From: Actinoplanes oblitus
Lineage (GTDB): Bacteria; Actinomycetota; Actinomycetes; Mycobacteriales; Micromonosporaceae
DNA length: 64,000 bases
Direction: 5' to 3'
NCBI RefSeq assembly: GCF_030252345.1
Contig: NZ_CP126980.1
Location: forward strand, 4,045,501-4,109,500
Shown here one piece after another: positions 41,201-55,369 of the stretch. The stretch's first letter is position 1. Each line of letters starts with the position of its first letter. Made by a program: the position numbers and the translations under genes. Under the pieces are notes generated by a model. The model had not been told where the DNA came from and did not search any database. It saw only the letters and a program-made list of their open reading frames with translations.

Positions 41201-42507
41201 AGCCGCGGGACGCGCCGGACTGCCGCGGTGACGGCGGCTGTGCGCTGCTGGTCGTCGGTGATGCCGAGATCCAGGGTGGCACGGTGGAGGTCATCGACGG
41301 TGATCGATCGGCCGGGCCGGCGTGCCGTCGCATGCCGGATCAGCTGCCGGGCGCGCTGGTCGACATGGTCCGGGACCTGCCCGGCCGCGATCCTGCGCAC
41401 CTCGCTGGCGGTGTTGAGGCCGGCGCGGCGGTCCTCGTACTGCCACCGTGTGACGGCCTGATTGGTGGATTCACCGCCGTCCTTGTCGGGCCGCGAGCGC
41501 AGGGTCGCGATCTGGGCGCGGTGGCGCCACCGGCCGATCTGCATGCGCTCGCGGCCGGCGGCCGGGTCGGTCAGCTGGCTTTGCATGTCGGTTTCGATGG
41601 CGGCACGCCGCTTCGAGTACTGCGCGATGGCGCGGGTGCTGAACCCGACGATCTCACGGATCGGTGACCCTTCGCGGGCGGCGAACCGGACACCGAGGCT
41701 GCGTCCGAGTTCGACTTCGACGGCGCGTTCGTACGCGACCCGGGCGCCGATGGTGGCCTGGTAGAAAGCCTTGCTGTCGAGGGAGAGCCAGTCTTCGCGG
41801 CCGTTGCGGGTGACGCGAACTTTGCTGGAGACGACGATGTGCGAGTGCAGCTGCGGGTCCTTCTCCCGTGACATCCGATGATCGAAGACGGCGGCGGCCA
41901 AGCCGTCGGTGTCGACCTGCACGATCCCGTCAGTGCCCAGCCGGGTGAACGCACCGTGCCGGCGCAGGTGCTCCAGGGTGGCGCGCACGCCCGCGTGGTG
42001 GGCGGCCATCACCTGCGCCTTGATGCGGTCGTCGCCGAAGGCCCAAAACAGGCTGACGCTTTTCACGGGAGAAACGGTGACGTCGAATCCGGCTACCGGC
42101 TGCCGTTCCGGGGCAGTCCAAATGCGTAGCCACACCTGCGCTATCTGCTCGTAGGTGGCGTCCTTGGGCAGCTCATCCCACGCCTTTTCGACGGCAGCCT
42201 GCCGCGCGCTGTCATCTAGCGTCTTATAGCGTCGCCATAGGCGACCGAGCTGCTTCCCGCTGACCGGGTGCTTTCCCTCACCGATGAGTTTCTGCAACTG
42301 CTCGGTGGATACCTCCCCGCCAATGCCGAAAAGAACGCCGGTCTGGCCGGCCCACCAGCCCGGTGCTTCGCCGCGGGCCTTCGGGTCGGTGTGGTAGGCG
42401 ACCGCGAAGGAACCCTCAGCTGGACGGAAGTCGTGCTTGCCGGCAGCCACCTGCCGGGTCAGGTAGGCGATCCCGGCCCCCGGCGCGATGCGAGCAACCG
42501 TGAGCAT
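38212..42507 (-). CDS. MobF (TrwC/TraA-type) conjugative relaxase-helicase
   Basis: The 1431-residue product has an N-terminal relaxase domain with the three-histidine metal site: H210 in VFDHRMSREKDP, and H221 and H223 in QLHSHIVVSSKV. The nicking Tyr is probably near the N-terminus (Y15 in GIAYLTRQV). A superfamily 1 helicase follows, with Walker A GPAGTGKT at 589-596, Walker B IIDEASQA at about 671-678 and QGRTVD-type motifs later. A coiled, Arg/Ala-rich C-terminal region of about 400 residues ends it. It would nick oriT, stay covalently bound and unwind the transferred strand. The ATG at 42505-42507 has only a weak ribosome binding site. A divergent AT-hook-like gene lies 210 bases away. 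Confidence 0.95.
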   Translation of the reverse strand: MLTVARIAPGAGIAYLTRQVAAGKHDFRPAEGSFAVAYHTDPKARGEAPGWWAGQTGVLFGIGGEVSTEQLQKLIGEGKHPVSGKQLGRLWRRYKTLDDSARQAAVEKAWDELPKDATYEQIAQVWLRIWTAPERQPVAGFDVTVSPVKSVSLFWAFGDDRIKAQVMAAHHAGVRATLEHLRRHGAFTRLGTDGIVQVDTDGLAAAVFDHRMSREKDPQLHSHIVVSSKVRVTRNGREDWLSLDSKAFYQATIGARVAYERAVEVELGRSLGVRFAAREGSPIREIVGFSTRAIAQYSKRRAAIETDMQSQLTDPAAGRERMQIGRWRHRAQIATLRSRPDKDGGESTNQAVTRWQYEDRRAGLNTASEVRRIAAGQVPDHVDQRARQLIRHATARRPGRSITVDDLHRATLDLGITDDQQRTAAVTAAVRRVPRLAVEHAVAELSASKAVFGIDHLELAIGRILHVDPADGRDQDWRRVQRLAAEAVRTHSSGLRVLTPSALLEWGDTLLRGSDRQSIYSRHRDLKLSTEPVLAAEKELIAYSTRRGAATAPKALLDQVATELDLSDEKRAALLFAVGDDRRITGIVGPAGTGKTYLQRAVGIAAQRAGVPILGLTVGQNAANVLAAATREGGSPGIRTENVAMWLHAQDFPPEGTTRADWAFQPGQWVIIDEASQACTIDLVRLAQLLEPVGGKLILVGDPEQISAVGPGGAFRYLASLGATTDLREVRRFTDAWEGPASLRLRIGDTTVLAEYDRRGRILGGHRQDLTQHVLDAWAADIVQGRSSLIMVETEAEAADLSARARQILINAGLVEPGASVELANGTHAGAGDLVVTRRNNRDLVMADRFVANRDQWRVVSIGATGSLNVEHTVTGRRIVLPGDYVAEHVQLAYAATVDSAQGRTVDVGRALVNAATSRARLYVMATRGRLLNQIAVITSDEPPEGHPARDPSAGVTTLAEILRTDTTDRSATEVEQSLWADVDALRQWGPVYDDLRGRAMAPRYTQVIRKVAGPAVAADFAADPALPALAARLQNLAAAGYDPEAVLAAVASARELHSARDTAAVLAWRIDQVYRDIEPDPAVAVSGPQAGTYTDRFPQADRDIGNALRDVAAICDRRVEALAVQAAQHQPAWSTALGALPADTAGRRQWLAGAAVVAAYRDRYAISGDEPIGPQPSTRDPARWAAWHRAQIVLGVATLAGQISAATDNRLRELINAQRAADNAAPPYVAGDLRSAHTRLVAAEQHLRDTRLTLAGAQHEAARSAAITQTGTPRWWQAAPGRARAAADRHAARVAALRASITVEELQRQLVDARARVTSARDEVTGLEEAHHDWNRWYQQQLPTRYAGLAAAAEAARRAQRLADGTKELAQHVRATTARVRAVDNTRPNRHSTPIPAHLDDDARAAYERTTEFAENGAQQPDHEMEFDRD

Positions 42508-42717
42508 GCGGGCAAGAGTATGGCGCGCCGCACCCCCATCTCGACATTTGAATGCCAGGGGGTGTGCTTGCTTCTAGAAGAAGTGAGAGAGGGGCCGCGT
42601 AAGCGCCCTGGTCATGCATGGTGTGACGAATAGTAAACGAGTCAGGAACGATTTCCGGCTATTCATAAACGACCAGTAGAGCTAGTCCTGTGGGTGCGGG
42701 AAAGGTAGCGTGGGTGG
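42508..42717. other. candidate origin of transfer between relaxase and its divergent neighbour
   Basis: MobF oriT sites usually lie beside the relaxase gene. This 210-base divergent gap is AT-richer than its surroundings and contains the palindrome CTTCTAGAAG around 42570, with direct GAGAG and AAGTG elements next to it. It is bordered by the relaxase start and by a gene for a basic, AT-hook-like protein that could be a relaxosome accessory factor. No nick site could be identified. Confidence 0.4.
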
Positions 42718-43565: not shown

Positions 43566-43916
43566 TTAGAACGGGATCGGGACCTCATCCCAGTTGATCG
43601 CCTCGCGCTCGGGCTCGATCCCGTTCATAAGCTGTACGGCGAGCGGCATCTCGTGCATACCCTCCCGGGCGGCGTCGGCGTTGAGGGTGGCCGCGAGGTC
43701 GGCGGGAATGCGTGCGTACTGGGCGGCGAACTTGATGACCTGCTCCGGGTCGGTGATCTCCATCAGGTCGCCCCCGCGTTCGAAGTCGGGAGCGTCGCAC
43801 TCGCTGTCGTTGGTGGTGAGGTAAACCTGAGCGAAGAACGTGCCGAGCGGGGCTTCCCACCCGACGAAGACGCAGGAGACGTTGTCGGCGGACGGTTCGA
43901 GTTCGTGACGGCTCAC
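43566..43916 (-). CDS. hypothetical protein, 116 aa
   Basis: The 116-residue acidic product begins MSRHELEPSADNVSCVFVGWEAPLGTFFAQVYL and continues with helices (DPEQVIKFAAQYARIPADLAATLNADAARE). The GTG at 43914-43916 follows AGGGAAAGG. A 7-bp-stem hairpin (GTCAGGG/CCCTGAC, 43955-43976) and an AT-rich promoter-like stretch lie upstream. The family is not recognised; its size and context are those of plasmid accessory proteins. Confidence 0.65.
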   Translation of the reverse strand: MSRHELEPSADNVSCVFVGWEAPLGTFFAQVYLTTNDSECDAPDFERGGDLMEITDPEQVIKFAAQYARIPADLAATLNADAAREGMHEMPLAVQLMNGIEPEREAINWDEVPIPF

Positions 43917-43976: not shown

Positions 43977-44437
43977 AGGAAAATCATACCGCAAAAATCC
44001 ATATGTATCTATATCATCCCCTGGTTTTTACGGAACTATTTTTCGCCTTTTGTTTCAAAAAGATGGGCGCGGCGGGCTGTTATGCCTGGTCACGGCCGTG
44101 CGATAAAGGTTCTGCCGCTTTTTCGGCCGTGGGGGGCGAGCTTGCTCGCCAGGTTGCGGACGGCTGGAGCCAAATGCGGTGCGGGGGTTTCGAATAAAAG
44201 ATTATGCGGGGTTTGCATAATGTTTTATGAGCCCGCGGCGGATTTGGTGGAAGCCGGGAGCGACCTACACTCGTAGCGTCAGCCACGGCCGGGAAAGCGG
44301 CTTTTTGCAGCGCGGCCGCAGGCCGCTCCGCTTTACCGGCCCGCTAGGGCCGGCCGGGCTGAGTTCGCCGAAGCATCGGGCCTGGTGCTGGCGGTGCTTC
44401 GGTGCGGAGGACCGGATGGTCCTCCGCACCGGGAGGA
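43977..44437. other. AT-rich, hairpin-rich intergenic region
   Basis: From 43980 to about 44060, and again near 44190-44225, the base composition is much richer in A+T than anywhere nearby. It contains ATGTATCTATAT (44003-44014), which resembles half of the 1440-1465 palindrome. It also contains the inverted repeat ATTATGC/GCATAAT around 44200-44222 and GC-rich hairpins (GCGAGCTTGCTCGC near 44138; GCGGCCGCAGGCCGC near 44310). No gene is convincing. The stretch could be a promoter region or a vegetative origin. Confidence 0.45.
44401..44430 (-). terminator. perfect hairpin after the 56-aa gene
   Basis: GGTGCGGAGGACC (44401-44413) and GGTCCTCCGCACC (44418-44430) pair perfectly over 13 bases with a 4-base loop. 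It begins 7 bases after the stop of the leftward 56-aa gene, the usual place for a terminator. No T-run follows, so it may act as a 3'-stabilising hairpin instead. Confidence 0.6.
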
Positions 44438-44608
44438 TCAGCGCCGGCTGTAGTTCAGGACCGTGCGGTACTCGCGGAAGTCCTCGGGGCTGCGCGGGTT
44501 GTAGAAGTCCTTCTCCCCGGCGAGGGCCGGCCGGGGGCCGCGGCGGCGGTGGTTGAGACCGGAGTGCTGGCGGGTGCGGCGGTCGGTGAAGTCGAGGTCG
44601 TGGAACAT
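44438..44608 (-). CDS. small basic protein, 56 aa
   Basis: The 56-residue product is basic and aromatic, beginning MFHDLDFTDRRTRQHSGLNH and ending DFREYRTVLNYSRR. GGGAGG lies 8 bases before the ATG at 44606-44608, the codons are strongly GC3-biased and a perfect hairpin follows the stop, so the gene is probably real. Structured element 1 begins 57 bases upstream of its start. No family is known. Confidence 0.6.
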   Translation of the reverse strand: MFHDLDFTDRRTRQHSGLNHRRRGPRPALAGEKDFYNPRSPEDFREYRTVLNYSRR

Positions 44609-44665
44609 CGTGGCGCCTCCCTGGCGGTGAAACCGGTGCGGCTACCGCCGGTTGGTGCCGTGGTA

Positions 44666-44820
44666 GCCGCGCTGACAGGACCGTGAAGGACCGGGTCGGC
44701 CTGCCGGCGGGCAAGCCATCAGGAGAAAAGATCTTGGACGCGCAGTTCTGCTGCCGTTCCTTGATCACCGGCGCTGCGCGTCCAAGATGTTTTGCCGGCT
44801 TGCCCGCCGCCGGACGGCCC
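44666..44820. ncRNA. structured element 1 (putative leader RNA / regulatory hairpin)
   Basis: An outer stem pairs CCGGCGGGCAAGCC (44704-44717) with GGCTTGCCCGCCG (44797-44809). An inner 20-base stem pairs AAAAGATCTTGGACGCGCAG (44726-44745) with its complement at 44774-44793, with a single G-G mismatch after the A-run. The motif AAAGATCTTGG ... CCAAGATGTTT, including that mismatch, and the left flank GCCGCGCTGACAGGACCG recur in elements 2 (49186-49357) and 3 (52983-53154). All three lie 50-75 bases upstream of leftward genes. Whether it acts as RNA or as a DNA cruciform is not known. Confidence 0.6.
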
Positions 44821-45013
44821 GGTCACCACGTGAGGACTGGCCAGCGCGGTACCCGGCATCGACGGCCAGCCGCATCCGTCACCGCCGGGGGCTCCGCTGT
44901 TCCCAGCCTCGACGCCGACCGCCAGCGCCAGCGCTCTGGGCGAACCGCAGCCCGGAAGCCAGGCGGGATCCGGGAGAAGGGCGGCGGAGACACGCCTACA
45001 GGCTTGGCTGGCG

Positions 45014-45421
45014 TCAGGATGCCCACCGGTCTTGGCCGATGGCGTCACGGATCCGCCGGGGTAGTGGGTCCAGCCAGAGCGAGCGGCGGCGATTCAAGCG
45101 GCGGTGTCCGTGATGCGACGGCGCTACCTCAGCACGGCTCCACGACATCAGCTTGTAGTCGTCGACGGCGGCATCGCAAACGTCTCGCACCCAGCGGATT
45201 CGGTGCACCTTGTCTCGGATGATGTCCAGCAGCGGTGATCCATGCCCAAGCCGAACAGTCCAGATCTCCGCCCGTCGCTGATCGGCGAGGTTGCCGAAGC
45301 CGTCGCCGGTGTAGACGACGACTGTTACGCCGTCGGTTTCGGGGCGAACCCAGACCACGGTGAAGCCGCAGTCGATGATGCGGATGAACTTCGACGAGCC
45401 GGGGCTCCAGCGGTGACTCAC
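45014..45421 (-). CDS. hypothetical protein, 135 aa
   Basis: The 135-residue product begins MSHRWSPGSSKFIRIIDCGFTVVWVRPETDGVTVVVYTGDG and ends in a basic stretch (HGHRRLNRRRSLWLDPLPRRIRDAIGQ). The GTG at 45419-45421 follows GGGAGACTC. A 15-codon reading frame (ATG 45465 behind GGCAGGAGATCGC) ends by overlapping this start as GTGA, suggesting coupling to a short leader peptide. The frame is open further upstream, but no start there is supported. No family is recognised. Confidence 0.5.
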   Translation of the reverse strand: MSHRWSPGSSKFIRIIDCGFTVVWVRPETDGVTVVVYTGDGFGNLADQRRAEIWTVRLGHGSPLLDIIRDKVHRIRWVRDVCDAAVDDYKLMSWSRAEVAPSHHGHRRLNRRRSLWLDPLPRRIRDAIGQDRWAS

Positions 45422-45834
45422 GAGTCTCCCTTCGATCGCCGGAATGGCGAGGTAGATAGGCGCATGCGATCTCCTGCCTTCGCGGCCAGGACGATAGGTG
45501 AGCGGGGCACCAGCGGCGGTGATCCGGCGTAGGAGCGGCCTAGCCACGGAGCTCAATTGCGTATGCGCGGGATGCCAGCTGCAGAGCGGCTGTTCTGTGT
45601 TCGTGCGAGGGCAGGGACGACTAGAGGTTGCCCGGCCTGTAGACATCTGGTGGCGAGCCGGTCTATGTCCCGTCCATGCTCGGTTTCTGGTCGAGGCGGG
45701 TGCTGATGACCGTAGCCAGCAGCTCGGCCGACAACGCCCGGTTTGTGGATGCCCTGCCGGTGGCGAGCCGATGGTGCAGGCTCGTGACGGCTCGGCTGCT
45801 GCGGGCGGCCCGGTCTCGTACGGCCTGAAGGGCG
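45422..45834. other. region with short leader frame, otherwise no gene seen
   Basis: It contains the 15-codon frame 45418-45465 described with the 135-aa gene. The remainder, to the stop of the next leftward gene at 45835, has open frames on both strands of poor composition. No hairpin or repeat stands out. Confidence 0.35.
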
Positions 45835-46314
45835 TTACCGCACCTCGCCCGCTCCGTCCCGCTGTACGACATTGCCGTACTGGTCCTTCGGCACGGTCGG
45901 ATCAATGAGGTCGGCGGCCCAGGCCACACCTTCGCGCCGGTATCGCGACGGCACCGAGACCTCGTTGCATCGGGCCCGGAGAAGGTCCGCGAAGTCCTTG
46001 CCCGCCTCCCGATAGACCCGCCGGGTCTCGGCTCGCGCATCCTTGGCTGTCTGCTCGGCGGTCTCCCGCTGCAGGCGGTCCAGCGCGCTGGTGTCGTAGA
46101 GGTGGCGGGCATATCTCTCGGTGGTAAGGCCTTCGCCACGTAGCAGGCGTTCCTGGGAGTTCTCGTCGGTGGGCCGGAATCCCAGCGTCCGGCGCAGCGC
46201 CTCGGCATAGAAGTCGGTGCCGTACCGCTTCTCCGGCTCGTGGTGGATGAGGTTCGCCATCTCAGCTTGGAATCGTTCGGCGATGCGATCCCAGTTCACG
46301 GAGTCGTTCGACAT
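45835..46314 (-). CDS. hypothetical protein, 159 aa
   Basis: The 159-residue, highly charged helical product begins MSNDSVNWDRIAERFQAEMANLIHH. It contains a long coiled-coil-like stretch (DRLQRETAEQTAKDARAETRRVYREAGKDFADLLRARCNE), and the end (GVAWAADLIDPTVPKDQYGNVV) reads like a short globular tail. AAGGA lies 10 bases before the ATG at 46312-46314. No family is recognised. Confidence 0.62.
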   Translation of the reverse strand: MSNDSVNWDRIAERFQAEMANLIHHEPEKRYGTDFYAEALRRTLGFRPTDENSQERLLRGEGLTTERYARHLYDTSALDRLQRETAEQTAKDARAETRRVYREAGKDFADLLRARCNEVSVPSRYRREGVAWAADLIDPTVPKDQYGNVVQRDGAGEVR

Positions 46315-46610
46315 GGCGGTCGTGTCCTTAATGGTTCAGCGGATGGTCGGGCAGAGCCGGTAGGCGCCGCCGGTGTGCACGGTCGGCAGATCGGGCCCAG
46401 AGCGGCCTGATATCCGGCGTCACGCGGGAGTAGTCGAGGTGGTGCAGTAGGCCGACGCGACGCAGAACGGCACCTGGTTCGGCAGAGACGAGGCATCACC
46501 GAGGGCAGGCCGACTTCCGGTCAGCGGAAGCTACCGGTGCGCATCCGGAATGCTCCGGCCTAGGTGACGGGTCCTGTGATTACGTCGGCGAGAATGAGGG
46601 CCGTTTCTAA

Positions 46611-47533
46611 GTGAGTGTTTGAGAGGGCTGTTAGCCGGGCGTGCTGGACACTCGGCGGCGCTGGCGGGTGGCGGGTCGGGCGCGATCGAGGCGGCGGATC
46701 ATGGTGTTGATCGCAGCCCAGCGGATTAGCGCTTCGGAGACTGCGGGATCATGCTCGTAGTCGCGGGCCAGGCGCCGGTGGGCAGTCAGCCAGGCGAGGC
46801 TGCGCTCGACAACCCACCGTTTCGGATGCACGACGAACCCACGCTGTTCCGCGGGCTTGCGGACGATCTCGACACTGATCTTGAGCGTGTCGGCAGCCCA
46901 GTCAACCAGCCGTCCGGCGAAGCCCTGGTCAGCGAACACGTGTCGGATCGGGGTGAACAGGTAGGTGCTGAGCAGGGTGGTCTTGGCGCCGTCGCGGTCT
47001 TGCCAGGACGCCGACATCACGCAGACCACGACCAGTAGGCCTAGGTGTCGGTGACGATGAACCGTTTGCGGCCGTTGATCTTCTTCCCGGCGTCGTAGCC
47101 GCGGCTGTCCCTGCCGACGGTGTCGGCTGCCTTGACCGATTGGGAGTCCATGACGCCGGCCGATGGCTGCGCCTCGCGGTCCTCGGCCAGCCGCACTTGC
47201 TCGCGTAGTTCTCAAGGATCCGTTCGGTGACCTCGCATTTCTCCCACTGCTGGAACTGCCAGTACACGGTCTGCCAGGGCGGGAAGTCGATCGGGAGCTG
47301 ACGCCATGAACAGCCGCTACGGACCCCATACAAGATCGCGTCAACGATCGCCCTGCGTGGATGCTTCGGGACCCGCCCTGGCGACTTGATCAACGGAAGC
47401 ATCGGCTCGACCAAGTCCCACTGCCCATCGGTCAGGTCAGACGGATACCGCCGCTCACGCTCCACCGGACCAGCTTCAGACCGCCCTCGCCGCGTCCAGG
47501 GACACACCGTGCGACAGCACTCTCAAACACTCA
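46611..47533. mobile_element. IS5-family insertion sequence, degenerate
   Basis: The left end GTGAGTGTTTGAGAG (46611) and the right end, read in reverse (CTCTCAAACACTCAC up to 47533), form a 15-bp perfect inverted repeat that extends imperfectly. Directly repeated TAA flanks the element on both sides (46608-46610 and 47534-47536), a probable target duplication. Just outside the right end GTGAGTTTGAGAG imitates the terminal repeat. The body encodes one leftward IS5-type transposase broken by frameshifts. Confidence 0.85.
46631..47465 (-). pseudogene. IS5-family transposase with two frameshifts
   Basis: The N-terminus (YPSDLTDGQWDLVEPMLP, RAIVDAILYGVRSGCSWRQLPIDFPPWQTVYWQFQQW) is in one frame. 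The middle (LREQVRLAEDREAQPSAGVMDSQSVKAADTVG, GYDAGKKINGRKRFIVTDT) is in a second, and the end (LGLLVVVCVMSASWQDRDGAK ... KRWVVERSLAWLTAHRRLARDYE) in a third. Each junction, near 47212 and 47041, is explained by loss of a single C from a CC pair. Programmed frameshifting exists in some IS5 groups, but two separate shifts point to inactivation or sequencing error. The DDE residues are otherwise present. Confidence 0.85.
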
Positions 47534-47727
47534 CTAAGTGAGTTTGAGAGCCAGTTGGAGCGGGTCGGCTTGATCAATGTCGGTGAGATCGAGCGCCACT
47601 TTCGTGCGGGTCGGCCGTCTGTCGAGATCGTGATCCGTTGAGTTCGGCGGAGGTCTCGAGGAGGTCAGCGCGCTGTCATCGTGCTGACCTTCGGCGGCGA
47701 ATCACGGCGGGTGAGGCATGCCAAGGG

Positions 47728-48243
47728 TTACTCGGGGAAGCCTGCGGAGGGCGTCAGCCGCTCAATGAGCCCGCGGAAGTTGGGTGCGAGCAGCAGTTCA
47801 TGGTCCATCTCGTTGTCGATCCAGACGACCGGTGGATCTCCTGCGGAGCCGCAGTCTCGGTAGTCGAGGGCAATCCAGTAATGCCCTTCTCCGCCGAGTA
47901 ATACAACTGGCGAGGGGAGGTCCCATTCCTGCACCAGATATGGGGTGTCGAGCAGCGTCGTCGTCGTGGCCTGCCCGGCCGGTCCGATCCCGCAGAGTTG
48001 CTCGAAGGGAACGTGATCATCCGCGTAGAAGTTCGTTTCAACCGGACATGCGTCCCATGCCTCGGCGACGACACCACCGTTCTGAATCTTGAGTAGGCGG
48101 ATGAGGTCGAGGGGCAAGGTGACCCCGAGCTGGGTTTCTGCGTCGGCGACCAGGTCATCCGTCAGGGGAGGCAGCCGAAGATACTCAATGTCCGGGTGCC
48201 AGAAGCCGGCCACGACCCGATCGAACGACGCCATGCCGATCAT
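47728..48243 (-). CDS. SMI1/KNR4 (SUKH) family protein
   Basis: The 171-residue product shows the SUKH pattern: TDDLVADAETQLGVTLPLDLIRLLKIQNGGVV near the N-terminus, and GEGHYWIALDYRDCG followed by PPVVWIDNEMDHELLLAPNFRGLIERL at the end. SUKH proteins are commonly immunity proteins against polymorphic nuclease toxins; no toxin gene lies nearby, so this may be an orphan immunity gene. The start at 48243 lacks a strong ribosome binding site; the ATG at 48234 is an alternative. It follows the IS5 element. Confidence 0.85.
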   Translation of the reverse strand: MIGMASFDRVVAGFWHPDIEYLRLPPLTDDLVADAETQLGVTLPLDLIRLLKIQNGGVVAEAWDACPVETNFYADDHVPFEQLCGIGPAGQATTTTLLDTPYLVQEWDLPSPVVLLGGEGHYWIALDYRDCGSAGDPPVVWIDNEMDHELLLAPNFRGLIERLTPSAGFPE

Positions 48244-48490
48244 GGTGCCATGCGCGGCTACGGACGTTGATGGAGATCATGACCCGGTCGACGACCGAGG
48301 TGTGGCCAGCCGGTCCAGACGGGTGGCGCTGAAACTCACCGACACGGACCTGCGCCGAAAGTCGGCGGCGCTCGAAGTCACCTACACCTGGCGCTGACAT
48401 TCACCGACAGAACCAGTCCTGAGCCGCTGTGCACTGATCGCCGCCCAGATGCAGTGGAACTGACGGTGGGATGCGAGATCGTTTAGGCAG

Positions 48491-48528
48491 CACGCTGCCC
48501 GGCCGATGCGAACCGGCCGGGCAGCGTG
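48491..48528 (-). terminator. strong hairpin after the 48535 gene
   Basis: CACGCTGCCCGGCCG (48491-48505) pairs perfectly over 15 bases with 48514-48528, with an 8-base loop. It begins 6 bases after the stop of the leftward gene that ends at 48535, so it should terminate that transcript. Confidence 0.75.
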
Positions 48529-48534
48529 TCATGA

Positions 48535-49134
48535 CTACGGCATCAGCGTGGCGGTGGCCTCCTCGGCGGACGCGACCGAGACGGCGAAGCCCGCCACGGT
48601 CGCGTTGCGCAGGACGTACGCCATGCCCGCCTGGTCAGCTGCTCGCCCGCGCAGCTGCTCATCCGTGACGGTGAAGGTGACCGTGTAAGTGCGAACCGGA
48701 AGCGGAACCTCGTCCAGCTCGTAAGCATCGACCAGCTCGCGGTACAGGCTCCGATACTCCTCCGCGTCGTAGCCGAGGTCGATGGCCTTACGGATGGCCG
48801 TCTTCAGGCGGGCTTTGGTGATGAACGGATCGGTGGAGTCAGCCGCGGTGAACCGCTCGTCGGCCACGTCAGCGGCAGCGTCGCCATTGCAGATCCGGCA
48901 GGACTGGCTGCATCGCCCGCTGCGCACGGGCTTGAACGACAGCCCTTCATTCAAGGCCTGCAAGGTGACGGACTCGGCGGTACCGCACCAGCTGTTGTCG
49001 TTGGCGTGCTGGCGTACGCGGGCGAGGACGTCGGAGAGGTAGACCGAGCCTTCCGGAGCGGCCGGCCGCCCCACGGCGGAGTCCTGATCGTCCGGAGTGG
49101 CGCTGGTGATCTGGTCGGTGACGTTCTCCGTCAT
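48535..49134 (-). CDS. hypothetical protein, 199 aa, downstream of structured element 2
   Basis: The 199-residue product has a Cys cluster (GRCSQSCRICNGDAA) that could bind metal. A helical charged part (RLKTAIRKAIDLGYDAEEYRSLYRELVDAYE) follows, then a C-terminal alpha/beta segment (VRTYTVTFTVTDEQLRGRAADQAGMAYVLRNATVAGFAVSV). GGAGG lies 8 bases before the ATG at 49132-49134. Structured element 2 starts 52 bases upstream, probably in its leader. No family is recognised. Confidence 0.65.
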   Translation of the reverse strand: MTENVTDQITSATPDDQDSAVGRPAAPEGSVYLSDVLARVRQHANDNSWCGTAESVTLQALNEGLSFKPVRSGRCSQSCRICNGDAAADVADERFTAADSTDPFITKARLKTAIRKAIDLGYDAEEYRSLYRELVDAYELDEVPLPVRTYTVTFTVTDEQLRGRAADQAGMAYVLRNATVAGFAVSVASAEEATATLMP

Positions 49135-49185
49135 GGTGCATGCCTCCATCAGGCTGTATCCGATGCGGCACCGCTTGCGAGATCG

Positions 49186-49357
49186 AGTGATCCCGGCGCT
49201 GGGGTGCCGCGCTGACGGGGCCGGTCAGAGCCCACCCATGGGCCTGGGGGTGCAAGCCCCCGTTCAGCGGAAGATCTTGGCGGGCGAGCGCAGCGAGACC
49301 TGGGGCCAAGATGTTCGGCTGGGGGCTTAGCGCCCTCGGCCCGGGTGGGCTGACCTC
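49186..49357. ncRNA. structured element 2 (putative leader RNA / regulatory element)
   Basis: The outer stem pairs GGTCAG-AG-CCCACCC (49223-49237, AG bulged) with GGGTGGGCTGACC (49343-49355). Inside are a hairpin GGGGG/CCCCC (49246-49261), a long stem CAGCGGAAGATCTTGGC (49265-49281) with GCCAAGATGTTCGGCTG (49305-49321), and a small hairpin at 49322-49336. The GTCAG arm can alternatively pair with CTGAC at 49212-49216, so two exclusive folds exist. Element 3 is about 85 percent identical and has compensatory changes in two stems. It lies in the presumed leader of the leftward 48535-49134 gene. Confidence 0.65.
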
Positions 49358-49380
49358 GGATCCCTCAGCGAGCGGCTCCA

Positions 49381-49739
49381 GACGCCGTAGTGATTGATCG
49401 CTGGAGTGTGGGCGGGCGTCCTGAGTGAGCACGCGGGATGGCGGCGTCCACTGGGCAAACGGAATCACGCCCGCGACGGGCACAACGACCGGCGCAACTG
49501 GCCGGAGCCAAGCGTCACGGGCGTCAGCGACGCCCGCCTCTGCGCTACTCCCTGACAGGCAGCACCGCACGATGGCGCCCGGCGCCCGGTCCTCGGCTAC
49601 GTACGCGAAGGCGTCCGGACACTCTCCGACGTCGTATCCGGGCCCGCCCGGGCACGTTGTCGATACCGATGGCACGCCCATCGAGATGGAGGATCAGCTC
49701 GATGCGATTTGCCGCGAGAGGCCGCACCACCGGCGGCAT
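49381..49739 (-). pseudogene. possible frameshifted hypothetical gene
   Basis: An ATG at 49737-49739 with a strong AGGAGG site begins MPPVVRPLAANRIELILHLDGRAIGIDNVPG. In that frame the sequence then turns Arg-rich and stops at 49545. A neighbouring frame continues more plausibly (GYDVGECPDAFAYVAEDRAPGAIVRCCLSGSSAEAG). A single-base shift near 49645 would join them. No family is recognised and the downstream end is uncertain. Confidence 0.3.
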
Positions 49740-49906
49740 GGCAGGGATCCTCCTGGCGCTGCCCGGTCCCGGCGGCCCCCGGTTGTGGGCGTCGGCTTCG
49801 AAGGCCGCGTTGACCGGCTCGTCGGTACCGTCGTTCGACGCGCTCGGTCGCCATCGCCGTTGGGACTGCGGCTTATCTGTCTCGAACCATTGCGTGTGAG
49901 CCGGCG

Positions 49907-50755
49907 TCAGGCAGGCTGGCTCGGAAGAGCTGCTCTGCGGCGTAGTTCGCGGAGCGGTAGTGGGTAGCTCACGCCCTGGCGACGTTCCTTGAGGATCGCG
50001 ACGGTGCCCAGTTGGGCGCGGAGTTTCTCTTCCTCGGCTTCGGCAGCCAGGTACCGATCGGGTGCGACTTGTAGTAGGTGCCGCCACTGGCGCTGACCAG
50101 CCCGGACGCACACACCGTGGCAGTTGTTATGGCTGAAGCCTTGCTCGTAGAGCCGTGGCGGCCGTAGTCCTTCGGCGCACGCCCAATCAAGCATCTGCTG
50201 TTTATTCAGGTGCGGTTCGTCGCACATCGGGAACCGTACGATCCACGGCGCCCAGCCCTTTTCGATGGCCAGCACGCGGCGCTGTTCACTCCAGTCGATA
50301 CCGACGTACAGGATCGTGTTGGCCGGGTCGGCGTTGGCGTCCAGCCAGGCCCGGCATGGCTTCTGCTTCAGATGAACCGAGCATGGAGCAATGCGAGAAT
50401 TCCCCACGAACCGCTGGTCGGCGAAGACCTGCCATGGGCTGCGTCCGTCAGCGACCACGACCGGGTCGACACCCAGCAGTGCACTGGAGTCGGCGACGAA
50501 TCTCCACAGGTCGGGATCTTCGGCTTTGGTGTCGGCGATGAGAAGGACAAGGTTGTCGGTGCCGTGTTCGGCTTTGACTCGCATGGCGGTCGCCCAGCTG
50601 CCGATCCCTCCGGAGTACTGCACGACGTGCTTGATCGGTCCCGTAGCGCGTGGTGGGTGTGCGGCGGTATCCGGCTCGGCTCTCTCGCTGGCAGAGGTGT
50701 GCCGAGTATCCCGGTGGTCTGCTGCGGAAGGACCGGCGACGCAGGGGCCGTTCAC
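49907..50755 (-). CDS. PP-loop ATPase of the PAPS-reductase/adenine nucleotide hydrolase superfamily
   Basis: The 282-residue product has a disordered N-terminal tail of about 40 residues, then the pyrophosphate loop HVVQYSGGIGSWATAM (SGGxxS-type), NLVLLIADTKAEDPDLWRFV and a CSVHLKQKPCRAW pair. Later blocks are YVGIDWSEQRR, RFPMCDEPHLNKQQMLDWACAEGLRPPRLYEQGFSHNNCHGVCVRAGQ. The family adenylates substrates, including sulfate donors and, in DndC-like relatives, steps of DNA sulfur modification. Mobile-element members are mostly uncharacterised. Its GTG start overlaps the stop of the preceding gene (GTGA at 50752-50755), so both are translated together. Confidence 0.8.
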   Translation of the reverse strand: MNGPCVAGPSAADHRDTRHTSASERAEPDTAAHPPRATGPIKHVVQYSGGIGSWATAMRVKAEHGTDNLVLLIADTKAEDPDLWRFVADSSALLGVDPVVVADGRSPWQVFADQRFVGNSRIAPCSVHLKQKPCRAWLDANADPANTILYVGIDWSEQRRVLAIEKGWAPWIVRFPMCDEPHLNKQQMLDWACAEGLRPPRLYEQGFSHNNCHGVCVRAGQRQWRHLLQVAPDRYLAAEAEEEKLRAQLGTVAILKERRQGVSYPLPLRELRRRAALPSQPA

Positions 50756-51297
50756 GGCTTCGCTCCGGTGCGCAGAGCGGCCGCACGGTTGAGCACGCCG
50801 CGGTCGGGGACGCTCCAGCCGTCACTGCAGTGAGTGCTCCGCGTGCCATCAGCATCGATACGTTCGGACCAGCCGTGGTCGCCGCGCTGTTGCCGGCCGA
50901 GGTCCACTGGACCGTACGTGGCGAGGTAGGCGGGGGTCTGGTCGGCGGCTTGTGCGCGTAGCCGGGTTACCCATTCGCATGCCGCGCTTGCGGCCCAGCC
51001 GGGGTGTTCGCGGGACTGGTAGGTCAGTGATGCGGCGGCCATGGTGACGACTTCGGGATCGATGCGCCCGGGGTAGGGCCGGTACTGGTAGGTGTCGACG
51101 TCGTTGTCGCGGAAGTCGCAGGGGCCGGGCCGGTCACCGTCGTGGTCGTTCGGGTATCGGTGGGCGACGCTGGTGAGGTTTTCCTTCCACAGCATCCGAC
51201 CGGTGCTGTCGGCTTGTTCGGCGGTGATGAGCTTCCATTGCACGGCGGCGGTGAGGAGCAGGTCGATGTGATCGCGGTTGACGATCCAAGCGCTCAT
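50752..51297 (-). CDS. hypothetical plasmid protein, 181 aa, coupled to the PP-loop gene
   Basis: The 181-residue product begins MSAWIVNRDHIDLLLTAAVQWKLITAEQADSTGRMLWKENLTSVAHRY. It contains TYQYRPYPGRIDPEVVTMAAASLTYQSREHPGWAASAACEWVTRL, which has the look of a conserved actinobacterial plasmid family. No function is known. The ATG at 51295-51297 has no strong Shine-Dalgarno. Its stop overlaps the PP-loop gene start, suggesting the two work together. Confidence 0.72.
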   Translation of the reverse strand: MSAWIVNRDHIDLLLTAAVQWKLITAEQADSTGRMLWKENLTSVAHRYPNDHDGDRPGPCDFRDNDVDTYQYRPYPGRIDPEVVTMAAASLTYQSREHPGWAASAACEWVTRLRAQAADQTPAYLATYGPVDLGRQQRGDHGWSERIDADGTRSTHCSDGWSVPDRGVLNRAAALRTGAKP

Positions 51298-51343
51298 GAG
51301 GGGTCCGATCTGGTCAGCTGATGGGCGGGGCGCTGTAGCGGGA

Positions 51344-51381
51344 CGCTGGTGGGACACCCGGTGTGCGGTGTCCCACCAGCG
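51344..51381 (-). terminator. strong hairpin after the small membrane-protein gene
   Basis: CGCTGGTGGGACACC (51344-51358) and its perfect complement (51367-51381) form a 15-bp stem with an 8-base loop. It begins 6 bases after the stop of the leftward gene at 51388, as expected of a terminator. Confidence 0.75.
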
Positions 51382-51387
51382 GGCGGC

Positions 51388-51603
51388 TCAGTGCAGGCCG
51401 AGGATGATCAGCAGCGGGGTCTTGTCCAGGACGGTGAGAGCGACGATGTGCGCGCCGATGAGTCCGGAGACGTGCGCGACCGGGTGGGCCGCGTGCTTGC
51501 GGACGGTGCGCAGAACCGTCCGGCGCCGGCTGGCGCTGACCGCCGTGGTGGTGGTCGCCGTGGTGTCGGCGGAGGCGGTCGCGGTGGCGTCGTTCTCGAG
51601 CAT
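51388..51603 (-). CDS. small membrane-associated protein, 71 aa
   Basis: The 71-residue product has a Thr/Ala-rich start (MLENDATATASADTTATTTTA), a basic stretch (SRRRTVLRTVRKHAAHPV) and a hydrophobic end (VSGLIGAHIVALTVLDKTPLLIILGLH) that could span the membrane. AAAGGTGA precedes the ATG at 51601-51603. No family is recognised. A terminator hairpin follows directly. Confidence 0.55.
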   Translation of the reverse strand: MLENDATATASADTTATTTTAVSASRRRTVLRTVRKHAAHPVAHVSGLIGAHIVALTVLDKTPLLIILGLH

Positions 51604-51658
51604 GGGATTCACCTTTCGTCGGTGGGTTCCGTGGTCGGGGTGCGCTATCGGATGGCCG

Positions 51659-51916
51659 TTACCGGCCGGCGTCGGCGATGGGATGGCCGGGCCAGCGGGC
51701 TGCGTCAGGGCTGAGCAGGTCGGAGGAGTCGAACTCGGGCTCCGGCCAGTGCCAGGAGCAGGTGTGCTGGTTGTGTTCGGTGCCGGCCGTTGCGTCGCAG
51801 TCACTGCACGGGCGGGGAATGGTCGGCGTCGGGCAGTCGGGGGTGTGTTCGAAGTACCAGCCGGTGCAGCAGGACCGGGGTAGAGAGATGTGGATGGGCG
51901 GCGACGTGTCGCGCAC
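51659..51916 (-). CDS. small Cys/His-rich protein, 85 aa
   Basis: The 85-residue product has paired cysteines and histidines spaced for metal binding (RSCCTGWYFEHTPDC, RPCSDCDATAGTEHNQHTCSWHW). The GTG at 51914-51916 follows GGGAGTC. A zinc-ribbon-like fold is likely but the family is not recognised. It lies between the small membrane protein gene and the first SSB gene. Confidence 0.5.
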   Translation of the reverse strand: MRDTSPPIHISLPRSCCTGWYFEHTPDCPTPTIPRPCSDCDATAGTEHNQHTCSWHWPEPEFDSSDLLSPDAARWPGHPIADAGR

Positions 51917-51947
51917 GCGGTGACTCCCTGGGCGGCGGGGGATTTTG

Positions 51948-51980
51948 CGTCTGGTCCCGGGCGGGTCCCGGGACCAGACG
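51948..51980 (-). terminator. hairpin after the first SSB gene
   Basis: CGTCTGGTCCCGG (51948-51960) pairs with CCGGGACCAGACG (51968-51980). It lies 14 bases beyond the stop of the leftward SSB gene at 51994. Confidence 0.65.
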
Positions 51981-51993
51981 ATGCGCGGCGGGA

Positions 51994-52431
51994 TCAGCGG
52001 CGGCGGTGCACGGTTTCGAGGTCACCGATGACCTCGGGCCACGCTTCGGCGGCGATGCTCTCGCCGTACGGGCTGGTGACCACGTCGCCGCTGCGCTGGG
52101 CACGGCCGTTCGCGGAGGTGGCGTCGCGCAGGGTCACGCTCAGGTCGCGGGCGAACATCTTCAGGCTCAGGGTGCCGTTGTTGTCGTAGGGGATCAGGCG
52201 GCTGCCGTTGACGACGACGGTGGTGCGCGGGGCGAGGTTGAGGGCCTGGCGGGCGAGTTCGCCCCAGCAGACGATGTCGAACACCATCGGTTCGGATCGG
52301 CGGGTCTTGCCGTTCTCGACCCAGGTGCGGTAGTTGCTGATCTCGAACTGGGTGTACCGCTTACCACCGCCGGTGACGCCGGACTCGGGGCGGCGGGTGA
52401 TGACGCCTTCGACGATGAACATGGCCTGCAT
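51994..52431 (-). CDS. ssb: single-stranded DNA-binding protein
   Basis: The 145-residue product has the SSB OB-fold pattern: MFIVEGVITRRPESGVTGGGKRYTQFEISNYRTWVENGKTRRSEPMVFDIVCWGELARQALNLAPRTTVVVNGSRL. It has a short Arg-rich rather than the usual acidic C-terminus, so it may not recruit replication partners in the normal way. AAGGAGT lies 6 bases before the ATG at 52429-52431. It could protect the transferred strand during conjugation. A second SSB gene lies directly upstream. Confidence 0.85.
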   Translation of the reverse strand: MQAMFIVEGVITRRPESGVTGGGKRYTQFEISNYRTWVENGKTRRSEPMVFDIVCWGELARQALNLAPRTTVVVNGSRLIPYDNNGTLSLKMFARDLSVTLRDATSANGRAQRSGDVVTSPYGESIAAEAWPEVIGDLETVHRRR

Positions 52432-52472
52432 GCGCGACTCCTTGGTCAGAAAAGATCGGGGGCGGGTGCGCG

Positions 52473-52495
52473 GGGCCGGCCGGGTGGGCCGGCCC
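52473..52495 (-). terminator. hairpin after the second SSB gene
   Basis: GGGCCGGCC (52473-52481) pairs with GGCCGGCCC (52487-52495). It lies 14 bases after the stop of the leftward SSB gene at 52509. Confidence 0.55.
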
Positions 52496-52508
52496 TGCGG
52501 CGGGTCGG

Positions 52509-52928
52509 CTAGAAGGAGGGCTCCAGGACCTTGGAGGTCTCGGGCTCGTCGATCGCCCACGGCTCGGTGGTGGGCTGGATGACCTCGGCGGGCTTGAATC
52601 GCAGGCTCAGCGCGACGTTCGCGGCGGTCACCTCCAACAAGGCGCCGGGCTGGCCGTTGTCGTTGCGCAGGTACGCCCAGGGCCGCAGGTCGTCGCGGCA
52701 GGTGACCAGGACCGTGTTGCCCTTCTTGAGCTGGGAGCACCGCTCGGCGAGGCCCTCCCACGCGGTGACGGCGACCCACATGGTCGGCCCGTTCTCCCAC
52801 TCGCCGTCCTTGTTGCGGCGGCGCGTGTTGTGCCCGACCTTGAGCTGGCAGTACGTGGTGCCGGATTCGGTGATCTTCAGCTCGGCGTCGGCGGCGAGGT
52901 TGCCCTCGAACTCGAAGGTGAAGAGCAT
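52509..52928 (-). CDS. ssb: single-stranded DNA-binding protein, second copy
   Basis: The 139-residue product has an OB-fold: MLFTFEFEGNLAADAELKITESGTTYCQLKVGHNTRRRNKDGEWENGPTMWVAVTAWEGLAERCSQLKKGNTVLVTCRDDL. Its tail is Pro/Glu-rich and ends LEPSF, closer to the acidic-tipped tails of housekeeping SSBs. GGGAGCC lies just before the ATG at 52926-52928. Only distantly related to the other SSB here. Structured element 3 starts 55 bases upstream. Confidence 0.85.
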   Translation of the reverse strand: MLFTFEFEGNLAADAELKITESGTTYCQLKVGHNTRRRNKDGEWENGPTMWVAVTAWEGLAERCSQLKKGNTVLVTCRDDLRPWAYLRNDNGQPGALLEVTAANVALSLRFKPAEVIQPTTEPWAIDEPETSKVLEPSF

Positions 52929-52982
52929 GGCGTGGCTCCCATCAGGTGGTGCGGGTGCGGCCGTCTCGGCGGTCCGGATCGG

Positions 52983-53154
52983 GTGATCCGGGAGCGTCGG
53001 GGTGCCGCGCTGACGGGGCCGGTCAGAGTCCGCCCGGGGCTGGGGGTGCAAGCACCCGTTCAGCGAAAGATCTTGGCGGGCGAGCGCAGCGAGACCCGGG
53101 GGCCAAGATGTTTCGCTGGGGGCTTAGCGCCCTCGGCCCGGGTGGACTGACCTT
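52983..53154. ncRNA. structured element 3 (putative leader RNA / regulatory element)
   Basis: This is homologous to element 2. The outer stem pairs GGTCAG-AG-TCCGCCCGGG (53021-53038) with CCCGGGTGGACTGACC (53137-53152). The long stem is CAGCGAAAGATCTTGGC (53061-53077) with GCCAAGATGTTTCGCTG (53102-53118). Relative to element 2, a C-G pair of the outer stem is T-A here, and a G-C pair of the long stem is A-T, so pairing is kept while sequence changes. CTGAC at 53010-53014 can compete for the GTCAG arm. It lies in the presumed leader of the second SSB gene. Confidence 0.65.
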
Positions 53155-53553
53155 CGGGCCTCTCAGCAGCGGACACCTCTGGCCGCCTACCGGTTCGCAC
53201 GACATCCGGCATCCGGCGAAGCACACGGGTGCCAGCCGGAGTGGGCAGCGACATGACTACTGCCGGCGGGCAGGCCGAGTCATGCCCGTGAACTGCTGGA
53301 GCGTCGGCCGTGACTGAACCGCAGCGCAGGCGCACGGGGGCATTTGCGCGCCTGCGCGCTGTGCAGGTCGATGTAAGGGGGAGGGGCTTGCCAGCCCGGG
53401 TGCCGCGCTGCTGGGATTCGTGCTGACGAGGTGAATGATCGGCAGGGCCGAACGAGTGCCCGCCCGGATAGGCGCAGGACGTAGCTAGGCGCGGTCGCCG
53501 CAGTGCCAGCCTGGCCTGGCCGGACGGCACCGCGGCGGTACGCGGCTGAATAT
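53155..53553. other. region between element 3 and the Prim-Pol gene, no gene seen
   Basis: Open frames are present but have poor composition. An imperfect hairpin (GCAGCGCAGGCGC, 53321-53333, with GCGCCTGCGCGCTG, about 53348-53361) could terminate the leftward Prim-Pol transcript. The promoter for the SSB gene and element 3 must also lie here. Confidence 0.4.
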
Positions 53554-54480
53554 CTAGCGGCGCGGCCGTGGACGGGCTCGGCCGGCTTGCCATCCGGAGT
53601 CGATGGTGCGTTCGGCTTCGGTCCGGCTCAGCCCGACGCCGACGGCGGCGTCGGCGAGCTGGCGCCGTACCGCCGCCTCGTCGATGGCGCTGTCCGTAGC
53701 TAGTTGACCGAGTCGGAACGCTGCGAGGTGCACAGTGTTGTTGCGTTCGCCGCCGCTGATGCGCTGCCCGCCGGAGTACACCGGGCGCGGTGCGTGCTGG
53801 ATGCGCCGCAGCTCGCCGGCGAGCGCGGCGTGCAGGTAGCGGTCGAGGTGATCGATCGGGCCGACGGGGGTGACGGCTGTTTCGGTCGCTGGCACGGCGA
53901 CGAGTTCGGCCAGAGGCTCCGGGCAGGCTGGTAGCTGCCGGCGGTCCCACGGCTGCTGGAACCGATAGCTGGCGCCGCTGGCGTGGCGCGACGGCGGCGC
54001 GACAACCATGCCGCCGGTGCCGCGCCAGTCCACGCCGGGCAGTAGTCCGATCCGGCTTGGCAGGCCAGTGGAGGCGTACCAGATGTGCCAGCCGTTGCCA
54101 GTACGCACCAGCGGCGCGGCCGGTTTGACAACGTCGAGGACGTTGAGCACCGCGGCCAGGCCGGCGCCGGTGTCCATGTCGCAGACGTCGAGCCCGGTTC
54201 CGGTGGCCAGGCCCACGTTCGCGTCGGGCCAGCGTTGCCACCAGTCGCGGATCTGATCCGGGTCTCGGGACGAGTCATGAATCCCGTGTTCGAGCCGGGG
54301 GTGTTTGCCCGGTGATCCGCAATCGGCCGGGTGCCGGCAGCTGCACGTCCCGTCGGCTGCCGGGGTGTGCAGCGGCAGCACGGGGATTCCGGCTCGGGCG
54401 TACCACAGTGCTGCCCGTCGTAGGTTCGGGTCGGCTGGGCGTGACTGACGCGTGCTTGCAGTGGTGACAGAAGCAGTCAT
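53554..54480 (-). CDS. stand-alone bifunctional DNA primase/polymerase (Prim-Pol)
   Basis: The 308-residue product has the Prim-Pol pattern: AALWYARAGIPVLPLHTPAADGTCSCRHPADCGSPGKHPRLEHG, the acidic catalytic strand GLDVCDMDTGAG, and RTGNGWHIWYASTG with GTGGMVVAPPSRHASGASYRF. A helical C-terminal part lacks any helicase domain. It may prime the complementary strand in the recipient or assist replication, beside the two SSBs. The ATG at 54478-54480 lies 5 bases after the preceding gene's stop, indicating an operon. Confidence 0.88.
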   Translation of the reverse strand: MTASVTTASTRQSRPADPNLRRAALWYARAGIPVLPLHTPAADGTCSCRHPADCGSPGKHPRLEHGIHDSSRDPDQIRDWWQRWPDANVGLATGTGLDVCDMDTGAGLAAVLNVLDVVKPAAPLVRTGNGWHIWYASTGLPSRIGLLPGVDWRGTGGMVVAPPSRHASGASYRFQQPWDRRQLPACPEPLAELVAVPATETAVTPVGPIDHLDRYLHAALAGELRRIQHAPRPVYSGGQRISGGERNNTVHLAAFRLGQLATDSAIDEAAVRRQLADAAVGVGLSRTEAERTIDSGWQAGRARPRPRR

Positions 54481-54485
54481 TGGGG

Positions 54486-54986
54486 TCACTGATCCGGGCC
54501 TGGCGGAGACGCCGGGGGCAGCCGGCGCCAGTCCTGGCTCAGCTTCTGGCGCAGCATGGTTTCCTGATCGTCGATGAGTGCACCTTCGAGGGCTTCGTAA
54601 TGGGTGCTGGCGTCGGCGAGGTCGATCGGCGGCAGGTCGGCCAGTTTCCACATGCGGGCGTACAGCCCGGCGGCGCTGGTGTTGAGCGGGACGCGCAGGC
54701 TGACTTCGCACAGCGCGACGCAGCATTCCGCGGCGGTGCCGGGCCGAGTGTCTGCGCCTGCGGCGACCCGGTCGAGCAGTTCCCGGCAGTGCGCGCGGTA
54801 GACCAGGTCGTTGCGGGTCAGGGCGTCGGTGGGTGGCCGCAGCAGCAGGAAGCTGCGCCAGATCCGGTCGGCGGCCTTCGGGTGGCGGCGCTGTGCCGTG
54901 GTGATTTCTTCCTCGGCGATATCGATCGCGTCGAACACGCTCCGCAGGTCGTGCTGCAGATCGGCCAGCAGCTGTGCTGGTTGCAT
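54486..54986 (-). CDS. hypothetical protein, 166 aa, upstream of Prim-Pol
   Basis: The 166-residue helical product begins MQPAQLLADLQHDLRSVFDAIDIAEEEITTAQRRHPKAADRIWRSFLLLRPP. It contains AECCVALCEVSLRVPLNTSAAGLYARMWKLADLPPIDL. AAAGGACC precedes the ATG at 54984-54986. Only 5 bases separate it from the Prim-Pol gene, so it is probably a partner in the same process. No family is recognised. Confidence 0.62.
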   Translation of the reverse strand: MQPAQLLADLQHDLRSVFDAIDIAEEEITTAQRRHPKAADRIWRSFLLLRPPTDALTRNDLVYRAHCRELLDRVAAGADTRPGTAAECCVALCEVSLRVPLNTSAAGLYARMWKLADLPPIDLADASTHYEALEGALIDDQETMLRQKLSQDWRRLPPASPPGPDQ

Positions 54987-55369
54987 GGCTTGGTCCTTTC
55001 AAAGTTATGGACGCGGCGGTGCGGTGCCAGGGCCAGGGATGTCGTGGACAGCGGGGTTGCGGATACAAAGAAGGCCCGGCTTCCTTCGTGGAAGCCGGGC
55101 CATACGGAGTGCGGGTGCGATGGGTAATGCCGTTTGAGCGGGGCGCTCGTGGCTGTGTTGCTGGAACGCTGGGCGCACTGCGGATGTCGAGCGCCTGGGC
55201 GCGTCGGTTTCTATGCTGATGACTTCGTGAGGCTGCTGAAGTCGGTCGGCGCCCTCGGCTGGCGTGCTGACGGCCACGGAATGTCACGGCGCATCGCCGC
55301 GGTTTCAGCGTTCGTCGATGGTGAGAGCGTTTGGTGGCGGTGCGCCGCAGCGGATCCGCACGAGGAGTT
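54987..55369. other. intergenic region with terminator, no gene seen
   Basis: It contains the hairpin at 55073-55101. Rightward and leftward frames here have poor composition or lack ribosome binding sites. AAAGGACC near 54990 belongs to the gene starting at 54986. Confidence 0.4.
55073..55101 (-). terminator. intrinsic terminator
   Basis: GGCCCGGCTTCC (55073-55084) and GGAAGCCGGGCC (55090-55101) form a perfect 12-bp stem with a 5-base loop. On the minus strand it is followed by TTCTTTGT, so it fits an intrinsic terminator for the leftward gene ending at 55370. Confidence 0.8.

Follow-up and report, generated by a model that had tools for sequence, protein, structure and literature searches.

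Single-stranded promoters are described, in the literature that we examined, from enterobacterial plasmids: according to PMC9849209, Frpo2 of the F plasmid lies upstream of ssb, carries its -10 and -35 boxes in a stem-loop and is required for early expression. Here we describe a family of imperfect hairpin elements found in a 64-kb window of the Actinoplanes oblitus chromosome (64,000 nucleotides of contig NZ_CP126980.1, to which all positions refer unless a locus is named) and in related genomes. These elements resemble Frpo1 and Frpo2 of F and ssi of ColIb-P9 in being hairpins on the transferred strand (here a predicted one), in template orientation and in more than one copy, and in their location in a MobF leading region upstream of ssb and other establishment genes. 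They differ in showing no clear similarity to the Frpo sequences of F, with which they were compared, and no clear -35/-10 pair, in their mismatched core, in reaching up to six copies per locus, and in their actinobacterial host. An element that precedes ssb at a fixed distance, folded on the strand predicted to be transferred and oriented as template, reproduces the arrangement of Frpo in F. We propose, with a confidence somewhat above an even chance, that these hairpins serve as promoters, or as promoter-like sites, on single-stranded DNA, within the leading region of an integrated conjugative element of the MobF type.

Of the 300 most frequent gene families of leading regions in Samuel et al. 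2024 (PMC11541004), those for anti-defence, methyltransferases and SSB all have their genes on the T-strand. The anti-defence islands described there resemble our loci in their SSB, methyltransferase and ArdC-type genes and in the use of the T-strand as template. The promoter search in that study started from five known Frpo/ssi sequences and a -35/-10 consensus, and the present elements would probably escape it. The EGeRS of the Gram-positive pLS20 family are likewise repeated regulatory sequences of establishment operons, but there, in PMC8708921, a single-strand promoter was argued against, the transferred strand being the non-template, whereas here the predicted transferred strand is the template. 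Among the matches listed from the open-licence PMC literature, no paper dealt with single-strand promoters in Actinobacteria.

Conserved hairpin elements with a flawed core stem

The original prediction had described three related structured elements, and all three are present on the plus strand, each with a G-G mismatch: one of class A at 44662..44834 (core 44728-44791) and two of class B, at 49203..49360 (core 49271-49315) and at 53001..53157 (core 53067-53112), the last of these in front of an SSB gene. A relaxed search uncovered a fourth and smaller member of the same family, element D (44158..44264, plus strand), a small hairpin with the core AAGATTATGC-7nt-GCATAATGTT at 44198-44224, a G-G mismatch and a long outer stem. 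The stem said to be common to the first three, AAAGATCTTGG/CCAAGATGTTT, occurs in that form in the first and third elements, while the second has G-C for the outermost A-T pair. The replacement of C-G by T-A in the outer stem between the second and third elements was seen as described, and the fold of the third element exceeds chance on either strand (z -6.5 on the plus and -5.1 on the minus strand; 0/200 shuffles for each).

Across all loci, the elements fall into class A (20 copies, loop of 31-45 nt), class B (28 copies, loop of 24-27 nt), class D (10 copies, loop of 7 nt) and class C, which holds seven other elements with varying loops. The class D count was taken after two palindromic double readings had been dropped (L081 and L087, each the same hairpin on the other strand), and the class scan excludes strongly changed copies, such as the class D elements of L085 and L088 and one of L083 near 3833. 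Common to all classes are an outer stem and, at the core, an A+T-rich stem interrupted by a flaw that is in most cases G-G. The loops separating the arms range from 7 to 45 nt across elements, and a double-stranded operator of fixed spacing is therefore disfavoured. The invariance of the core in classes A and B partly reflects selection by the exact-core search, and relaxed and model searches reveal variation; changed cores are found, for example, in the class D copies at L085:14887-14996 (right arm GCAGAATTTATTTACCC) and L088:15141-15249. A sister element lineage, represented by L131 (G029 contig 10) and L130 (G042), carries class D type elements before some operons, at 276-283 nt from the starts, with a further copy at 311 nt whose span runs into a short called gene.

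The claim that these are conserved structures is borne out both by covariation and by the many further copies that covariance models found. Consensus folds of the plus strand contain 48 pairs in class B, 58 in class A and 36 in class D, of which 10, 12 and 12, respectively, have changes on both sides. In a shuffle control of covariation significance that covered classes B and D, the number of two-sided changes was reached in 0/500 shuffles, and the count of further pair types by 2/500 shuffles in class B and likewise in class D. Since related sequences can beat shuffles without structure, a slid-structure control matters here: with the structure slid, 36-54% of cells paired, against 97-98% in the true register (classes B and D). 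Compensatory changes also occur within the core, from C-G to T-A in class D and from T-A to A-T in L132, where the G-G is retained. A switch had further been suggested, in which a GTCAG arm pairs with either of two CTGAC segments; in L090:11833-12037, the single homologue that formed this test, and hence a weak one, the GGTCAG arm and the right-hand CTGACC change together while the left CTGAC copy stays behind, which lends the switch no support.

A class D model (R1), trained on ten copies, recovered seven held-out class D copies at E<1e-16 and, with E values from 1e-5 to 0.7, many copies of classes A and C. All 56 of its matches were known elements, 16 being the same hairpins on the other strand, and neither the stretch of F plasmid nor any of ten unrelated contigs in the search set was matched. 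A class B model (R2) matched 25/354 family genomes at E<=0.001 and yielded eight diverged loci, seven of them with an antisense ssb starting 68-81 nt from the edge of the match; the eighth, L160, yielded none. The class B model also has weak matches immediately before genes of a 53-56 aa family (L132:1934-2077, L083:3777-3932 and L134:1567-1771), which suggests that this small gene is often preceded by an element of its own. The two models provide a means to locate leading regions and their establishment genes, among them conserved genes as yet unknown, in cases where Frpo-based searches would probably fail.

There are 45 occurrences of the exact core pattern, spread over 18 of the 354 family genomes, and the reversed pattern has no match in the same set. 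Scanning genome contigs for the exact core gave 40 stretches, comprising 21 from Micromonosporaceae (Actinoplanes or others), 4 from Pseudonocardiaceae and 15 unrelated; these last 15, together with five viral hits, lack the outer stem on inspection by eye, apparently arose by chance and were not used. A generic AAG-stem-GTT scan returned 59 hits in the real sequence, of which two did not belong to any known core type, versus 6 in reversed sequence. In a class-wide sample of 394 genomes, a relaxed pattern was found in three (the genome under study, one of Pseudonocardiaceae type and one probably by chance) and a control pattern in one, so this form is rare outside Micromonosporaceae. A blastn search with the first and third elements against 72,556 plasmid records found nothing.

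Relaxase linkage, predicted transferred strand and antisense operons

Within the genus, the elements accompany a relaxase. The window encodes a TrwC (MobF) relaxase-helicase at 38212..42507 on the minus strand (PF08751 E 1.7e-65, PF13604 E 2.3e-39); such a relaxase is present at E<=1e-60 in 16/67 genomes, and all 16 carry elements. The exact core is found in 14 of these, while the other two have an element D (G042) or a variant B before ssb (G049), and neither the exact core nor a class B model match at E<=0.001 occurs in any of the 51 relaxase-negative genomes of the genus. One genome, G029, has two relaxase copies. The genes of the window had been taken for plasmid genes; they sit on a 9.8 Mb single-contig chromosome, presumably in an integrated element.

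Upstream of the relaxase gene lies a conserved block (42542..42571, plus strand), a candidate origin of transfer (oriT) with its nic site, in which a CATT/AATG repeat with a 2-nt loop is followed by GGGGGTGTG; the conserved block before the gene reads CGACATTTGAATGCCAGGGGGTGTGC in the window. On the element-bearing strand, GGGGTGT precedes the relaxase gene in 10/10 aligned loci, and the form GGTGTG in 5/5 distant loci. The nic region of the F plasmid, used as a control, has GGGGTGT in the same geometry, with a hairpin plus GTGGGGTGTGGTGC on the strand that templates the leading genes, and is where F is nicked. By this analogy the plus strand would be the one transferred, with its 5' end near 42565 and a leading region spanning 42.6-53 kb. 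In 16 stretches containing a relaxase start, the predicted transferred strand is the template for 47/47 elements, and 44/47 lie on the 5' side of the relaxase gene, which is the leading region if oriT is there as predicted. We hold firmly that the elements sit in the leading region as hairpins, and we infer that the island is a working conjugative element.

The elements also keep a regular distance from the genes that they face. Gene calls were made with a codon-usage script, and their starts are estimates. All 61 scanned elements, from 18 loci, are followed by an antisense start codon at a class-specific distance (118-126 nt for 20 class A elements, 123-147 for 28 of class B, 268-289 for 10 of class D and 121-286 for three others), whereas only 30% of 8916 random intergenic control positions have an antisense start no more than 320 nt away. 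One class C element overlaps a called short gene, and four Pseudonocardiaceae copies have antisense starts 136-312 nt downstream. In the window, the closeness to leftward starts that had been reported is confirmed with our own gene calls, the left edges originally given lying 52-58 nt from the starts at 44608, 49134 and 52928. Within the spans of the elements, 152/163 genes are antisense to them (14/14 in the window), and in each of the 15 loci with two or more elements all lie on the same strand.

Proposed single-stranded promoters and competing readings

Computation establishes the elements themselves, how they are conserved and covary, how they are oriented and spaced, which genes they face and how they go with the relaxase. 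The site and strand of nicking, hairpin formation in the cell, binding by polymerase, the point of initiation and early expression are inferred, and the exact promoter boxes are tentative. After nicking the plus strand near 42565, the relaxase would guide the 5' end so produced into the recipient, and the region 42.6-53 kb would enter first. Each element on the plus strand would then fold into a long imperfect hairpin, its right arm acting as the non-template against the left arm, and the hairpin would offer a double-stranded site at which host RNA polymerase could dock, its A+T-rich core containing a built-in flaw that is usually G-G. Moving left along the transferred strand, the polymerase would transcribe the genes for SSB and other establishment functions while the complementary strand is still lacking. 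Once the DNA had become double-stranded, the hairpins would be gone and this expression would cease. The original prediction had faced a puzzle, in that a G-T pair favoured the plus strand while position favoured the minus-strand genes. It would be resolved if the plus strand is the transferred one, which then both folds and serves as template. Among the options given there, that of a DNA structure fits best, in the form of single-stranded transferred DNA and not as a cruciform.

The strand that folds can also be approached through the pairs themselves. With DNA parameters, the plus strand folds better in 65/65 elements. Among pairs predicted from both strands with RNA parameters, G-T outnumbers A-C by 27 to 12 cells (B 5:2, A 12:10, D 10:0); 15 columns have G-T only and 4 have A-C only, and the shared pairs of class D have G-T in 8 columns and A-C in none. 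DNA parameters give 24 versus 13 cells (B 1:3, A 13:10, D 10:0). For an RNA leader of these genes one would expect the opposite balance.

Such a minus-strand leader would make the element part of the 5' end of each operon's transcript, where it would function as RNA, for instance in cis antitermination or translation control; it is the alternative that survives best, and we consider it unlikely. A known counterpart is the put antiterminator RNAs, structured elements near the operon starts of mobile elements that act as coding-strand RNA; our elements share the position near operon starts, but here it is the other strand that is favoured. A leader would need no regulator and would likewise lie near operon starts; it would fit the constant distance that is observed to the start codon, the beyond-chance folding of the minus strand of the third element and the near equality of G-T and A-C in class A. 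It is opposed by the better folding of the plus strand in every element, beyond shuffles, and by the exclusive G-T pairs of class D. Furthermore, Rfam 15 gave no match at gathering scores in the whole window and none at E<=1 in 44400-53500, a range that does not include element D, and a strict scan for a classical, conserved minus-strand promoter upstream found one in 0/65 elements. The leader is thus not supported as the principal explanation.

The proposal of single-stranded promoters must itself be set against a number of observations. Owing to G+C skew, the plus strand is also the better folder in 88-97% of shuffles and 62-89% of neighbouring windows, and its folding excess, about 2-4 standard deviations over shuffles, is 1-2 standard deviations over neighbouring windows; we weigh this comparison of energies lightly because the shuffles attribute much of it to base composition. 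The lead of G-T comes mainly from class D and carries no base-composition correction, class A being nearly even and class B reversed with DNA parameters. A -35 box is not conserved: sequences resembling one (TTGATC, TTGATG or TTGACC, at 16-nt spacing) occur in 7/20 class A elements and in nearly none of classes B-D. The -10-like core hexamer CAAGAT (CATAAT or CATGAT in class D) agrees with the consensus at 3-5 of 6 positions, in a tentative register, and is altered in distant copies. Frpo2 of F matches class D of L085/L088 over 29/34 nt at E 0.009, which, beside E 0.03 for a place that is not an element, is too little for homology. The G-G flaw has become a C-G pair in the class D copies at L081:3339-3445 and L087:456-562, and is changed in class D of L085 and L088; among eight distant copies, four have lost it and a fifth has a bulge beside it. 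It is thus a flawed stem that is maintained, and not particular letters. As to transfer, the candidate nic hairpin is short, and a scan for a hairpin plus GGGTGTG matches many other places in the loci; three Pseudonocardiaceae copies lie past the 3' end of the relaxase gene and would hence enter late. Ten further proteins of the window gave only a sub-threshold match to the TrwB coupling protein and no full secretion system, and no integrase or attachment sites were shown for the window, no systematic recombinase search having been made.

The weak promoter boxes and the three copies in a late-entering region would also suit a folded DNA site for a protein of the element itself, with a single-strand binding, priming or regulatory role, in which case the hairpins would be operators or complementary-strand priming sites and not polymerase promoters. 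This reading, which we regard as slightly less probable again than an RNA leader, would accord with a core that is kept over different outer stems (partly by construction of the search) and with the two SSBs and the Prim-Pol protein that the element encodes. Priming sites, however, need no copy at a fixed distance from several operons, and incoming DNA would first meet host proteins only, unless donor proteins accompany it. A recombination or mobility site, such as an attC-like or REP-like hairpin that shuffles gene modules, is very improbable: imperfect hairpins with conserved ends, a single orientation, variable genes between copies and a phage-integrase-family gene between two elements (L087:10936-13254) would agree with it, but the copies keep a fixed distance to start codons and the element classes mostly follow gene type across loci. 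Integron attC sites lie at cassette ends and have a linked integron integrase.

In its wider form the promoter proposal is more tentative, and we place it just short of an even chance: the elements would constitute an actinobacterial family of single-stranded-DNA promoters, unrecognisable as homologues of Frpo or ssi, in which several early operons, each with its own hairpin, form an establishment programme expressed from the incoming strand, and in which the polymerase reads the flawed A+T core in the stem and not a full -35/-10 pair. If true, this would be a second, structurally marked family in high-G+C Gram-positive bacteria, and would suggest that expressing genes early from the strand that enters is a solution of general use.

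Downstream genes and cargo

The next antisense gene after element D in the window encodes a 116-aa protein that is kept in relatives (43566..43916, minus strand), and the class A element is followed by a gene for a 56-aa protein (44438..44608, minus strand), neither with a Pfam match. A 199-aa protein with relatives in other loci and no Pfam match above the cut-off is encoded after the first class B element (48535..49134, minus strand). The second class B element precedes genes for an SSB (52509..52928, minus strand; PF00436 E 1.9e-15) and a second SSB-like protein (51994..52431, minus strand; PF00436 E 5e-7); upstream of this element lies the gene of the Prim-Pol protein (53554..55287, minus strand; PF09250 E 8e-32), given as the longest open reading frame, with an uncertain start. 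Across loci, SSB pairs follow class B elements, ArdC is the next gene after a class C element, an N6 methyltransferase is encoded further down a class B operon and a ParB-like gene lies 3 kb beyond the outermost element of L081, while several downstream products have no family.

In many relatives, a class A element is followed by a gene of 374-383 aa (L081:4431-5582, L079:28-1170, L083:4175-5314 and others), whose L081 copy, the only one scanned, is FAD monooxygenase-like (FAD_binding_3 by Pfam). The window lacks this gene, and its class A element stands before the gene for the 56-aa protein. The leading region of the window also contains an SspD-like gene (49907-50755, minus strand; PADLOC SspD E 2.7e-12, no Pfam match), with a similar protein encoded at L081:7253-8098 (minus strand); going by this resemblance, it possibly has a role in counter-defence or DNA modification. 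Cargo between two elements in L079 includes a gene for a 2219-aa protein resembling a Tc-type toxin subunit, with SpvB and TcdB_toxin_midN domains (L079:6050-12709, minus strand). Between elements A and B of the window, 25-bp inverted repeats (46607-46631/47514-47538) bracket reading frames that by eye look transposase-like, and 46607-47538 is perhaps an insertion sequence.

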